NCBI RefSeq assembly: GCF_000691165.1
Contig: NZ_ASJD01000002.1
Span: 124,001-188,000, forward strand
DNA length: 64,000 nt
Direction of reading: 5' to 3'
Source of the DNA: Bacillus safensis FO-36b
GTDB taxonomy: Bacteria > Bacillota > Bacilli > Bacillales > Bacillaceae
Part shown: positions 15,257 through 55,209 of the stretch, piece after piece
Numbering within the stretch: the first letter of the stretch is position 1
Layout of the letters: each line of letters opens with the position of its first letter
The notes under the pieces: model-generated
Told to the model about the DNA's origin: nothing
The model's input: only the letters and a program-made list of their open reading frames with translations
Databases searched by the model: none
Translations under genes and position numbers: made by a program

Positions 15257-15257
15257 G

Positions 15258-15331
15258 CAGATTGCTCGCAAAGGGCTAAAATCTTTCTTTTCGCCCTTTG
15301 TCTTTTTTTCAGCTTGAGACCTACACGCTGA
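15258..15331 (+). repeat. Shortened copy of the terminator-associated repeat
   Basis: Begins CAGATTG and ends CACGCTGA like the two 176-bp copies at 40136 and 55034. It keeps the first hairpin in altered form (CAAAGGGCTAAAAT ... TTTTCGCCCTTTG) and the TTTCAGC arm, but lacks about 100 bp of the interior. It starts one base after a terminator hairpin, the same placement as the full copies. Confidence 0.8.
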
Positions 15332-38662: not shown

Positions 38663-38717
38663 AAACAGATGTCAAACTAATAAAGAATGACCCGTCATGA
38701 GAGGAGATTTGAAAGTT

Positions 38718-40127
38718 GTGTCAGTAAAGGGAAAATGGAGTATCGTCCTATTTGCGCTTGCAGTCGTCATTGGAGCAGTTGCTTTCTTTCAAAATCAACA
38801 AGCAAGCGGTACAGAGAAGAAAAATGTAAAGCAGGATACGAACTATAAAGACGTAGAAATTGTCACTCTCGTAAATGACGGGAAATTTATGAGATATGCA
38901 GTCAACTATCCTCTTTTTCATCAAAAAGAGCTAGATGACAAGATTCAAAGCTATGCCAATTCAGCATTAGAGCATTTCAAAAAAACATTCAGTGAAGCAA
39001 AGGATATTGATGAAAATAAACGCTATGAACTGAATATTGATTATGAAATGGTGCATTATGCGAAGCAGTCTGCTGCCATTCGCTTTACGACCTATACGTA
39101 TACTGGCCAGCAAAATGGAACCACCAATCATCTCACGATTAACTTTGATTTTCAGAAAAAAGCCTTTCTTGACACCAAAGATTTATTTCTGCCTAAAACC
39201 AATTATTTAAAGAAATTATCCTATATTACATATACAGAGCTTCGGAAGGACAAAACCTTATCTAAGGATCAGCCTCTCCTTCAGAAAGGGACAGCCCCTG
39301 ATGCTCAAAACTTCAGTCAATTTGCCTTGAAAGACAAATATGTAGAATTTTATTTCCCTGCATCTCAAGTAGCCGCAGAGGATCTTGGTCCGCAAACACT
39401 CGCAATCAAAAAGACATTGCTGAAGGACATATTAAAGCCAGAATATATGGATAAACTCAAAAATAAAAATGAAATGAAAGAACCGAATCCAAAAAGAAAA
39501 GCCGTCAAGCTGCCGCAAAAATCAAAGCTTGACCCGAATAAAAAAGCCATCGCACTCACATTTGATGATGGACCGAATCCAGCGACAACCACAAAAATTT
39601 TAGATGCGCTGAAGAAAAATAAAGGACATGCCACCTTTTTCGTATTGGGCAGCAGGGTGCAATATTATCCTGGAATGCTTGCCGATATTTTAAAAGGCGG
39701 GAATGAGATCGGAAACCATTCCTACAATCACCCTTTATTAACAAGACTGTCTTTAGATGAAGCGGTGAAACAAGTGAAGGACACCCAGCAGCTGATTGAG
39801 AAAGCGAGCGGATATACACCTACGCACTTTAGACCGCCATATGGCGGTACAAATCAAGATATCAATCATGCAATTGGGATGAAGGTCACTTTGTGGGATG
39901 TTGATCCTGAGGATTGGAAAATCCGCAACAGCCAGCAGATCACAAACCGCGTTCTCTCACATGCAGCCGATGGCAGAACAGTGTTAATGCACGATATTTA
40001 TGAAAGCTCAGCCCAAGCAGCCGTAAAGATCATCCATGAACTCACCAAACAAGGCTACCAGCTCGTCACAGTGAGTGAACTTGAACAATTAAAAAAAGAA
40101 CGACATGAACAAACCCCTGTAGAGTAA
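38718..40127 (+). CDS. pdaC: Peptidoglycan MurNAc deacetylase, PdaC-like
   Basis: 469 residues from GTG 38718, which has AGAGGAG 11 bp upstream; the ATG at 38697 lies before that site and is less likely. N-terminal membrane anchor (WSIVLFALAVVIGAVAFF), a DUF4163/DUF3298 domain (about 60-235), then a NodB polysaccharide deacetylase domain with ALTFDDGPN (catalytic and metal Asp), GNHSYNHP (metal His pair), RPPYGG and LWDVDPEDW. Length and layout match B. subtilis PdaC (467), which deacetylates muramic acid and alters lysozyme sensitivity. Its terminator overlaps its last codons and is duplicated around a repeat element. Confidence 0.88.
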   Translation: MSVKGKWSIVLFALAVVIGAVAFFQNQQASGTEKKNVKQDTNYKDVEIVTLVNDGKFMRYAVNYPLFHQKELDDKIQSYANSALEHFKKTFSEAKDIDENKRYELNIDYEMVHYAKQSAAIRFTTYTYTGQQNGTTNHLTINFDFQKKAFLDTKDLFLPKTNYLKKLSYITYTELRKDKTLSKDQPLLQKGTAPDAQNFSQFALKDKYVEFYFPASQVAAEDLGPQTLAIKKTLLKDILKPEYMDKLKNKNEMKEPNPKRKAVKLPQKSKLDPNKKAIALTFDDGPNPATTTKILDALKKNKGHATFFVLGSRVQYYPGMLADILKGGNEIGNHSYNHPLLTRLSLDEAVKQVKDTQQLIEKASGYTPTHFRPPYGGTNQDINHAIGMKVTLWDVDPEDWKIRNSQQITNRVLSHAADGRTVLMHDIYESSAQAAVKIIHELTKQGYQLVTVSELEQLKKERHEQTPVE

Positions 40128-40135
40128 ACAGGGGT
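40111..40135 (+). repeat. Direct repeat 1: pdaC terminator hairpin (proximal copy)
   Basis: 25 bp identical to 40313-40337; it contains the last four codons of pdaC and the hairpin ACCCCTGT / ACAGGGGT. It is followed by CTCAG, so it has lost its T run. Confidence 0.92.
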
Positions 40136-40312
40136 CTCAGATTGTTGACAAAGGGCTAAAATGATCTTTATTTTAGCCCTTTGTCTTCTTTTCAGCGTGA
40201 TGGAAAACCTTTGAAGTCTAGGAAGGACGAGTACTGGAGCGGAGCGAATTGTACATTCGTGAGCACCGGCACGCAGGACTGACAAAGAATGCGAGGGTTT
40301 GTCCGCGCGCTG
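40136..40312 (+). repeat. Terminator-associated folded repeat, copy A (177 bp)
   Basis: About 90% identical by eye to copy B at 55034-55209. Two folding units: a 15-bp hairpin ACAAAGGGCTAAAAT / ATTTTAGCCCTTTGT with CTTCTTTT after it, and a long nested arm closed by TTTCAGCGTG / CGCGCTGAAA with inner pairs AAACC/GGTTT, AGTC/GACT, CTGG/CCGG and GCGAAT/ATTCGT. Differences from copy B often keep pairing (CCGG against CCAG). It is flanked by 25-bp direct repeats. No credible coding sequence. Confidence 0.92.
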
Positions 40313-40337
40313 AAACCCCTGTAGAGTAAACAGGGGT
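40313..40337 (+). terminator. Direct repeat 2: pdaC terminator hairpin with T run (distal copy)
   Basis: Exact 25-bp duplicate of 40111-40135, here followed by TTTCTTTT, so this copy has the T run of a working intrinsic terminator. It also faces the 3' end of the convergent ABC-F gene. Confidence 0.9.
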
Positions 40338-40343
40338 TTTCTT

Positions 40344-41903
40344 TTATGACTCCAAAGACTTTTTTTGTTTCAATAATGCTTGAAATGCCTCTTCAAGCTC
40401 TTGCGACGGCTCAATACTTAAACGGCTGAGCACTTCAGACAGCTGCATATCAATTAACAGAAGCTCCTCTTCTCGATTTGTCACAGCTGGTTTTTCTTCC
40501 TTTTGTTTATAGGCTTCATATGTGCCGTCAAAAGCTTCAATACGTTCCTCGTGAATATGGAAAATACGAGTGGCAACCTCCTCAATCAGCCTGCGATCGT
40601 GGGAAACAAACACAACGGTACCAGGGTAATCCTTCAATAGACCTTCAAGTGCTTCAACTGCCGCCAGATCTAAAAAGTTCGTCGGTTCATCCAGCATGAG
40701 AACATTGGCATCACTGACGAGTAAGGACGCAAGCATCGTCTTCACCCGTTCTCCCCCGCTTAATACCTCAACAGGCTTGTGCACATCATCCCCTCTAAAT
40801 CCTAGTCTCGCCAAAACCGTTCGAACCACTGTCTCATCTTGAACCGCCTCTTTGAGCGCATTTTGTAAAATCGATTCATCTGCCTTCAGTCCTGAAAGAT
40901 CCTGACGAAAATAGGCTAGCTTGACAGCCTCTGAACGAGTAACTCCGGGGTGTCCATTCACTAACATGCGGAGAAATGTCGTTTTTCCGCTCCCGTTCTT
41001 TCCGATAATGGCAACCTTGTCTCCGCCCCTCACTTCCACATTCGCCTGCTTCCAAAGCACTTTATCGCCCGCCTTGCCATCTACATTTTCCACTCGCAAA
41101 ATGGTACGGCTTGCTACTTCCTTCATCGTATGCTGAGACATTTGAATCGGCTGAATGTCCTTTACCTTCTCCACCTTTTCTAATTTCTCCATCCTTGTTT
41201 CAATGGATTTGGCTGTTTTTTGCAGCTTTTTTTGCTTATTTGCATAGTAGGGCTTTGCAATTTTAGGCCCTGAGGATTTCACCTTTTGGGAGGGCTTTGT
41301 CGCTTTGTCCGCCTTTTTCTTTTTCTTTTCCAGTGCATGCTCTAACTGTTTTTTCTTTTGTGTATAGGCTTCATACGCTTCCACCTGCTGACGATGTGCC
41401 AGCTCTTTTTGCTGTGCAAAATGTGTGTAATTGCCTTTGTAATGATGAAGCTTCCCATGATCCAGCTCCCAAATCTCCGTACATATTGCATCTAAAAAAG
41501 CACGATCATGTGAAACAACAATGAGAGCTCCTTGATAATGACGCAGCTTATCTTCCAGCCACTCAATATGCTCCGTATCCAAATGAGTGGTCGGTTCATC
41601 TGCTAATAAAAGAGCAGACGGCCGGCTTAATGCTCTTTCAATATAAGTCTGGGTCATTTCACCGCCACTCTGTCTGCCGTCTCCTTGTTTCAATTGAGGA
41701 AGCAGCGTACAGACCGCTGTGGCGGCAACCGTGCCGCTGTCTGGTGTTTCCTGCCCCGCCAGCACATGCAATAAAGTCGTTTTTCCGCTGCCATTTGTCC
41801 CTACAAGACCAATGCGATCACCTTGATGGATGGCGAGCTCCTCAATATCAAATAACAAGCGATCTTTTCGAAATACCTTTAACTGATTGGCTTTTAATAA
41901 CAT
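40344..41903 (-). CDS. ABC-F ribosome-protection protein, Vga-like
   Basis: 519 residues from ATG 41903 (MLLKANQLKVFRKDRLLFDI), with AAAGGAGAGG upstream; a longer frame to 42047 runs through the attenuator. Two ABC domains without membrane segments: Walker A GTNGSGKTTLL and GKNGSGKTTFL, signatures QSGGE and LSGGE, Walker B LLADEPTTHLD and LMLDEPTNFLD. A lysine-rich linker (about 190-290; ALEKKKKKADKATKP, AKPYYANKQKKL) inserts toward the ribosome. Sequence follows Vga(A) closely from memory (522 residues; FVSHDRRLIEEVATRI, EVLSRLSIEPSQELE), whose family displaces lincosamides, pleuromutilins and streptogramin A. Spectrum is inferred. Confidence 0.85.
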   Translation of the reverse strand: MLLKANQLKVFRKDRLLFDIEELAIHQGDRIGLVGTNGSGKTTLLHVLAGQETPDSGTVAATAVCTLLPQLKQGDGRQSGGEMTQTYIERALSRPSALLLADEPTTHLDTEHIEWLEDKLRHYQGALIVVSHDRAFLDAICTEIWELDHGKLHHYKGNYTHFAQQKELAHRQQVEAYEAYTQKKKQLEHALEKKKKKADKATKPSQKVKSSGPKIAKPYYANKQKKLQKTAKSIETRMEKLEKVEKVKDIQPIQMSQHTMKEVASRTILRVENVDGKAGDKVLWKQANVEVRGGDKVAIIGKNGSGKTTFLRMLVNGHPGVTRSEAVKLAYFRQDLSGLKADESILQNALKEAVQDETVVRTVLARLGFRGDDVHKPVEVLSGGERVKTMLASLLVSDANVLMLDEPTNFLDLAAVEALEGLLKDYPGTVVFVSHDRRLIEEVATRIFHIHEERIEAFDGTYEAYKQKEEKPAVTNREEELLLIDMQLSEVLSRLSIEPSQELEEAFQALLKQKKSLES

Positions 41904-41934
41904 CCAATCCTCTCCTTTCATATCAGGAGACATG

Positions 41935-41964
41935 AAAAAGCCTCCCATTCTCAGAATAGGAGGC
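41935..41964 (-). promoter_or_regulatory. Transcription attenuator upstream of the Vga-like gene
   Basis: Minus-strand stem GCCTCCTATTC / GAATGGGAGGC (one G-U pair), 3-nt loop, then TTTTTC, ending about 30 bp before the ABC-F ATG. An upstream leader string AGCCCTCCAT could pair with its right arm as an antiterminator. Such attenuators control other ARE ABC-F genes in response to stalled ribosomes. Confidence 0.8.
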
Positions 41965-42220
41965 AAAATGGTGTACAAAAATAAGCGGATTGATCCAGTA
42001 TGGAGGGCTGTTCCTATTTGAACACACACATCCCGCGTATCAATCACTTCATTTTTTGATTCCCAAGCTGTACCATCCTATTCCGAAGCTAAAAAATGAA
42101 AACGCAGCAAACATGGCAAACGGATCGTTTGCTCACTGCCTTCGTTCGTTCATTTTGCTTACAGGTCATAGGATTAGTACTTCATTGCATTGGGTCACCC
42201 TTCCGTCGTTTGTTACATAT

Positions 42221-49165: not shown

Positions 49166-49241
49166 CGCGCTCGGAGGGATTCGAACCCCCGGCAGACGTG
49201 GTACCGGAAACCACCGCTCTATCCAACTGAGCTACGAGCGC
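49166..49241 (-). tRNA. tRNA-Arg (anticodon CCG)
   Basis: Cloverleaf read by eye: acceptor GCGCTCG / CGAGCGC, D-arm GCTCAGTTGGATAGAGC, anticodon stem GTGGT / ACCAC enclosing TTCCGGT (anticodon CCG, reading CGG), T-arm GGGGGTTCGAATCCCTC, discriminator G. CCA is not encoded (TAC follows). It corresponds in position to trnQ-Arg of B. subtilis next to clpP. Confidence 0.95.
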
Positions 49242-55011: not shown

Positions 55012-55033
55012 AAGACGCAGAAACTGCGTCTTT
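55012..55033 (+). repeat. Direct repeat 1: yvcT terminator hairpin (proximal copy)
   Basis: 22 bp identical to 55210-55231: hairpin AAGACGCAG / CTGCGTCTT. Only three T follow before CAGATTG of the inserted repeat. Confidence 0.92.
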
Positions 55034-55209
55034 CAGATTGTTGACAAAGGGCTAAAATGATCTTTATTTTAGCTCTTTGTCTTCTTTTCAGCGTGATAGA
55101 AAACCTTTGCAGTCTAGGAAGGACGAGCACTGGCGCGGAGCGAATTTGACATTCGTGAGCACCAGCGCGCAGGACTGACAAAGAATGCGAGGGTTTGTCT
55201 ACACGCTGA
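55034..55209 (+). repeat. Terminator-associated folded repeat, copy B (176 bp)
   Basis: Same structure as copy A at 40136-40312: first hairpin ACAAAGGGCTAAAAT / ATTTTAGCTCTTTGT, then a nested arm closed by TTTCAGCGTG / CACGCTGAAA (a perfect 10-bp terminal pair in this copy). Inner pairs AAACC/GGTTT, AGTC/GACT, CTGG/CCAG and GCGAAT/ATTCGT. Flanked by 22-bp direct repeats of the yvcT terminator, in the same orientation relative to the upstream gene as copy A. Confidence 0.92.

Follow-up and report, generated by a model that had tools for sequence, protein, structure and literature searches.

As a rule, the target duplications left by transposons are short and constant in length. The YPAL repeats of Yersinia, elements of about 170 bp in other hosts than the one studied here, often lie at terminators with target duplications, and Bacillus subtilis 168 carries intergenic repeats of about 190 bp, similar in size to the Bacillus element described below. 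IS1272 and TnSha1, staphylococcal members of the IS1182 family, target stem-loops, several of which have been confirmed as terminators; in the sections of these reports that were available, IS1272 shows no specificity for primary sequence and hit single hairpins repeatedly, and three of its copies had non-hairpin targets (PMC5678879, PMC4923244). Duplication of a whole stem-loop, with the ends joining at the 5' feet, is drawn as possible pathway b in the available part of one of them (PMC5678879). Short repeats that are over-represented between convergent genes, namely SPRITE, RUP and BOX of Streptococcus pneumoniae, are known from the accessible text of another study (PMC3049150). Some IS1182 members target palindromes according to a review cited in the available part of PMC4923244, so a prior description elsewhere is possible; in the open-licence full-text literature, as far as its texts were accessible, we found no description of hairpin duplication by IS1182 or of the present MITE. 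The same literature yielded nothing relevant on MITEs of B. pumilus or on the 190-bp repeats.

Here we analysed a 64-kb window (the whole stretch of DNA under study, 64,000 nucleotides) of Bacillus safensis FO-36b, in which a repeated element lies at the 3' end of pdaC. What we describe is a MITE that targets terminator hairpins and is flanked by hairpin-sized duplications; the fold kept on one strand and the orientation relative to the replication fork were unexpected.

The element at the 3' end of pdaC

The pdaC gene (ORF 38697-40127; Pfam domains Polysacc_deac_1 and PdaC) ends in an exact 25-bp direct repeat that flanks the element (40111-40135 and 40313-40337), each copy being a hairpin. 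The features of the window that concern the element are the following.

40111-40135, + strand: proximal copy of the duplicated target hairpin, overlapping the final codons of pdaC and its stop
40137-40313, + strand: 177-bp MITE, TCAG...CTGA (family HMM positions 2-177, envelope 40137-40313)
40137-40152, + strand: left terminal inverted repeat TCAGATTGTTGACAAA, containing TTGACA
40147-40185, + strand: left-end hairpin with a T-rich tail, terminator-like (both-side changes in 8/14 pairs, 60 copies)
40192-40313, + strand: long right arm, a nested hairpin closed by TCAGC/GCTGA (from fold and covariation)
40298-40313, - strand: right terminal inverted repeat (family consensus on the - strand TCAGCGTGTAGACAAA; compared by eye)
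40313-40337, + strand: distal copy of the duplicated hairpin, with a T-rich run behind it at 40338-40345
55033-55209, + strand: second intact copy of the element, between copies of another terminator hairpin, AAGACGCAGAAACTGCGTCTT
15257-15331, + strand: remnant, decayed and internally deleted, that keeps both end motifs (the left matches the family model, the right was judged by eye)

A preliminary description of this stretch had seen a folded repeat bracketed by exact 25-bp copies of the terminator hairpin, the proximal one without its T run, and both observations hold. The proximal hairpin runs directly into the element, while the distal one is followed by TTTCTTTT and retains the T-rich run at 40338-40345. 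Since the left repeat copy starts within the last pdaC codons, the pdaC reading frame is complete. The limits of the element share a one-base ambiguity with the repeat (40136-40312 or 40137-40313), and the family model favours the latter, with the termini TCAG...CTGA.

The right terminal inverted repeat, compared by eye, agrees with the left at 13/16 positions in the family consensus and at 11/16 in the pdaC copy, and the TTGACA of the left repeat is exact in 231/265 element copies. The T-tailed hairpin and the long nested arm described earlier are both present, the former with a perfect stem of 16 bp (40147-40162 / 40170-40185) rather than the 15 bp first given; in the right arm, both-side changes occur in 2/3 pairs of helix 4 and 5/7 of helix 8. 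The element region has a folding energy of -111.1 kcal/mol, compared with -66.5 (sd 5.2) in shuffles (z -8.6). A terminator pattern scan of the + strand returned two sites, the left hairpin of the element and the distal host hairpin; the proximal hairpin was not found.

At 177 bp the element is well within the size of MITEs (<500 bp), and it is multicopy and non-coding, with one mechanical 76-aa ORF crossing it on the - strand. No Rfam family matched it at gathering or at permissive thresholds. The gene that converges on pdaC (40344-42047, - strand) encodes an ABC-F protein near the Vga family (708.3 bits; model cut-off 725); elsewhere in the window are an epsC leader RNA (Rfam RF01735; 32738-32850, - strand) and a tRNA (49166-49241, - strand).

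Distribution, target hairpins and empty sites

The element occupies at least 40 distinct places in its own genome, some truncated (40 of 69 candidates were scored), and a conserved-core pattern allowing up to 3 mismatches found 37. The remnant in the window adjoins a hairpin. Across the genus, 38/44 genomes gave a match at E 1e-4; among the matches listed, the hosts include B. pumilus, B. altitudinis, B. safensis, B. xiamenensis, B. zhangzhouensis, B. australimaris, B. stratosphericus and B. glycinifermentans. A record labelled as a B. subtilis plasmid (NZ_CP035408.1) matches at 80.6% over 76% of the query, and no copy was found in a phage collection at E 1e-5. Three PLSDB records labelled as Stutzerimonas or Klebsiella plasmids (NZ_CP078511.1, NZ_CP078512.1 and CP063894.1) contain copies at 78-94%, perhaps because Bacillus DNA was entered under the wrong organism name.

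Flanking repeats were scored in two sets, in which orthologous insertions of related species may count more than once. Set 1 held 79 loci (40 from the own genome, 39 from other species), of which 73 were two-ended and 6 truncated ones were dropped. Set 2 came from 105 named stretches with 117 family-model hits: 36 were dropped (27 left-truncated, 4 right-truncated and 5 at edges), and 3 of the remaining 81 shared a 30-bp flank with set 1, leaving 78 copies. Ungapped direct repeats abutting the element (score at least 10) flank 56/73 copies in set 1, where the repeats, 55 of them distinct, are 18-31 bp long, and 63/78 in set 2, compared with 1/724 and 1/763 in mispaired-flank controls. An earlier control run gave 3/720, with a top match whose score was that of L117 paired with L129; these are two element copies 1.4 kb apart in G010 that have the same hairpin. 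Allowing gaps (score at least 11) added 11/17 and 6/15 of the rest (controls 4/336 and 2/294), most of them as expected after an indel in the loop or stem, and 6 of the 73 and 9 of the 78 copies had no detectable repeat even then.

The ungapped flanking repeat is the target hairpin. In rebuilt empty sites the centre of the best unconstrained stem falls within 2 nt of that of the repeat in 55/56 cases in set 1 and 59/63 in set 2, and at 120 nt away a stem scoring at or above the site median occurred in 0/55 and 1/62 stretches. A palindrome profile anchored on repeat edges had been blurred, and the unconstrained stem test was clearer. Repeat length and stem-loop length are moderately correlated (r 0.60 and 0.32 in the two sets), perhaps because A/T tracts extend the stems.

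Crude ORF calls placed 80 of the 151 copies between convergent genes and none between divergent ones, with 9 lacking a call on one side; among 140 copies in four complete genomes, divergent calls numbered 4. Where a single gene faces the element, its end lies on the right in 46 cases and on the left in 16. The earlier placing of the element in the pdaC 3' UTR is correct by position here. At sites with one facing gene, however, the element is more often antisense to that gene (26:9 and 20:7), and it therefore does not appear to be there to serve the host transcript.

Some hairpins were used more than once. At L327 (G018), two head-to-tail elements are interspersed with three copies of one hairpin; L145, on a B. 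zhangzhouensis contig, has the same plan, with the first element cut by the contig end and two hairpin copies seen. At L054, one terminator is present in three copies, separated by a MITE and an IS1182 element (hairpin-MITE-hairpin-IS-hairpin). An insertion, as these tandem arrangements show, recreates its own target.

Orthologous loci gave the state before insertion. Among 17 orthologous pdaC 3' ends (13 further loci, four distant matches and nine paralogue-like, were left out), the element is present in the own genome alone, and the other 16, from related species, have one hairpin (judged by eye) followed by a T-rich stretch. At the second site in the window, 16 of 25 loci were compared: the element is present in 3 (the own genome, L256 and, up to a contig end, L258) and absent in 13, which have one hairpin by eye, weak in L260. 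Because G043, the nearest relative by this stretch, is empty there, the terminator at this second site has probably been hit by independent insertions. The preliminary description had proposed insertion with duplication of the target terminator, and had looked to the flanks of other copies and to related strains as the places where that proposal could fail; it survived in both, since most other copies do have flanking duplications and the 16 related species compared at pdaC have a single hairpin and no element. With target duplications and empty sites, the element shows these traits of a MITE as well.

IS1182 relatives, fold and orientation

A search of the genus with model NF033551 found full-length IS1182 transposases in several species; the own genome, a 37-contig draft, gave one weak match (E 1.3e-5). 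The first 11 representatives are all bordered by hairpin-like direct repeats. A family-wide search added 30 loci, 8 of them repeating known places, for 33 distinct places in total, with 19 loci (L061-L079, mostly partial) left out. Clear hairpin repeats of 16-31 bp are present at 19/33; the 14/33 with no clear repeat are mostly fragments, pseudogenes or cut by contig ends. Two loci have long open frames: L276, whose left-hand hairpin has no counterpart on the right, and L297, which abuts another IS copy on the left. L272 and L298 are each truncated at one side.

The likeness extends to the ends. The L056-type IS (G021, G022) has a transposase with DDE domains that scores 480.5 bits against the NF033551 IS1182 model (cut-off 270). 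Its ends read TCAGCTTGTAGACAAAG (left) and AGGGTTTGTCTACGGTCTGA (right), those of the MITE consensus TCAGATTGTTGACAAAG and AGGGTTTGTCTACACGCTGA; the left ends are identical at 15/17 positions and the consensus right end shares AGGGTTTGTCTAC, a short match. In L273, L274 and L275, IS1182 loci of another genus, the left ends CAGATTGT[C/A]GACAAAAG lead into a hairpin, the same plan as in the MITE. The element therefore resembles IS1182 sequences in its ends and in its targeting of hairpins. Its interior does not appear to derive from the L056-type IS, the one type compared, with which it gave no significant alignment (best E 0.094).

The fold was followed in 60 copies chosen for diversity, whose relatedness inflates the counts. 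In all, 97.9% of cells conform to the two-hairpin fold, and both-side changes were found in 15/46 pairs, or 125 cells; shuffles gave 34.6 such cells and slid controls no more than 27. Because G.U on one strand is A.C on the other, selection on a single strand is expected to enrich one of the two. Among the 43 pairs that are most often Watson-Crick, G.U occurred in 66 cells and A.C in 14, while unpaired columns had 68 G.U-type and 125 A.C-type changes. All 265 copies gave 201 G.U and 62 A.C paired cells; counting pairs with at least 3 such cells, 20 had G.U and 8 A.C, as against 17 and 30 unpaired columns (Fisher p 0.004), and the effect was weaker at a threshold of one cell (30 pairs and 23 pairs). 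A strand mutation bias is not supported as the source of the G.U excess, as unpaired columns lean the opposite way. Since G.U exceeds A.C in pairs and the reverse holds in unpaired columns, it seems from these alignments that the left-to-right (+) strand is kept folded, either in RNA or in single-stranded DNA. The hexamer TTGACA matches the -35 box perfectly and is the start of one promoter-like site; that the element gives rise to a short transcript of the + strand is thus possible, if speculative.

Orientation relative to replication was scored in six genomes in which dnaA was located, with the terminus assumed to lie opposite the origin. Of 232 copies, 166 are oriented against the fork (166:66, p 4e-11; the best 34-41 copies per genome, with shared ancestral insertions counting more than once), and the excess is present in each genome, that in G022 not being significant (25:15, p 0.15). 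In four of the six, 140/152 regions (L300-L439) were read for their gene context: the bias is 57:15 at convergent sites and, at tandem sites, 41:11 where the gene runs along the fork and 5:6, on few sites, where it runs against it. Transcription as the sole cause is not favoured, as convergent sites are biased too. IS1182 copies have no fork bias (25:22; like-ended type 5:2), so it was not seen as a general trait of IS1182 insertion; because only the MITE shows it, the two may insert differently, or selection on them may differ. Either insertion at forks or later selection could have caused the orientation of the element. Fork-linked orientation has been described for Tn7, IS200/IS605 and several IS families, in the part of that source available (PMC5371812).

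Proposed mechanism and comparison with known systems

Many copies, hairpin duplications, empty sites at two loci, and IS1182 elements that show the same duplication, one type of them with matching ends, lead us to regard the element as a MITE that is probably mobilised by an IS1182-type transposase. We are fairly confident that it is non-autonomous, with an IS1182-family DDE transposase using its ends in trans and choosing hairpin targets by their fold, and that the hairpin is duplicated in the process. The targets would be intrinsic-terminator hairpins, selected by fold rather than sequence, and the form recognised may be either a cruciform or a single-strand hairpin. On each strand, one 3' end of the element would be joined to the 5' foot of the hairpin; the two joints would then be offset by the length of the hairpin, and gap repair would copy the whole hairpin onto both sides. 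At pdaC the distal copy keeps the T run and is likely the working terminator, and the proximal copy keeps the end of the gene; insertion would therefore be nearly harmless while the target is re-created. What the sequences record points to a transposition enzyme that would recognise target DNA by shape. It may even be that the length of the duplication is set by the target hairpin while the mobile DNA is partly a folded single strand at the fork, a tentative reading that we hold to be rather doubtful. If true, it would explain both the one-strand covariation and the orientation against the fork, and would amount to a hybrid of DDE double-strand and fork-coupled single-strand transposition.

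The same orientation (166/232, p 4e-11; 57:15 at convergent sites) and the fold favoured on one strand could be taken to mean that insertion is single-stranded and coupled to replication, as in IS200/IS605, with the hairpin recognised in the lagging-strand template and no double-strand DDE joining. We consider this unlikely: inverted repeats at the ends and duplicated targets are characteristic of DDE transposition, the like-ended IS carries the gene for a DDE transposase, and IS1182 copies are without fork bias (25:22; like-ended 5:2). The covariation (15/46 pairs, 125 cells against 34.6 in shuffles), the G.U excess over A.C on the + strand and the T-rich tail of the left hairpin would also suit an RNA element of the 3' UTR owned by the host, a terminator, stabiliser or regulator multiplied by its usefulness, to which the flanking hairpins were secondary; at the 80 of 151 sites that are convergent, the left gene could read its + strand. 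Yet it is absent at 16/17 and 13/16 orthologous loci of the two sites, the host would read the other strand at 46/62 one-facing-gene sites, and the fold could equally be kept for transposition, which makes such an origin quite improbable in our view. Direct repeats alone do not prove transposition, and the terminators could in principle have been tandem already, the element arising between them by recombination. This is contradicted by the empty sites, as the 16 other pdaC loci have one hairpin, and many unrelated sites have the same pattern, so that we give it hardly any credence.

Insertion of a MITE by an IS1182-type transposase, with duplication of the hairpin, would mean that each hairpin-spanning repeat naturally preserves the positions at which the two strands were joined. 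It also suggests a route to filling a compact genome with little harm, namely to land in terminators, leave a complete terminator behind and recreate the target. For the annotation and 3'-end mapping of B. pumilus-group strains, doubled terminators are to be expected at many genes.

Among the systems known, SPRITE is terminator-like and found close to the 3' ends of genes, as the element is, but the accessible text establishes no target duplication for it and describes no doubled host terminators (PMC3049150). Within the IS1182 family, ISCaa15 and ISPse1 have terminal repeats of similar length (18 and 16), whereas in the available parts of these sources ISCaa15 is listed with a 4-bp direct repeat (PMC3196728) and ISPse1 shows a 4 that is apparently the direct-repeat length (PMC3281130). 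IS1272 and TnSha1 are closer: their transposase family is that of the like-ended Bacillus IS, and they too target stem-loops and hit hairpins again. They differ, as far as the accessible sections describe them, in replacing or partly deleting the hairpin without duplication, whereas the Bacillus element duplicates the whole of it; replacement of the IS1272 type, with the hairpin removed and no duplication, is not what we observe, as most element copies have the hairpin on both sides. The Bacillus elements fit pathway b of PMC5678879, as drawn in the part available, and their copies would support at scale what the IS1272 authors drew as a possibility. With duplicating members in Bacillus and deleting ones in staphylococci (IS1272), the choice between the 5' and the 3' foot becomes testable within one enzyme family.
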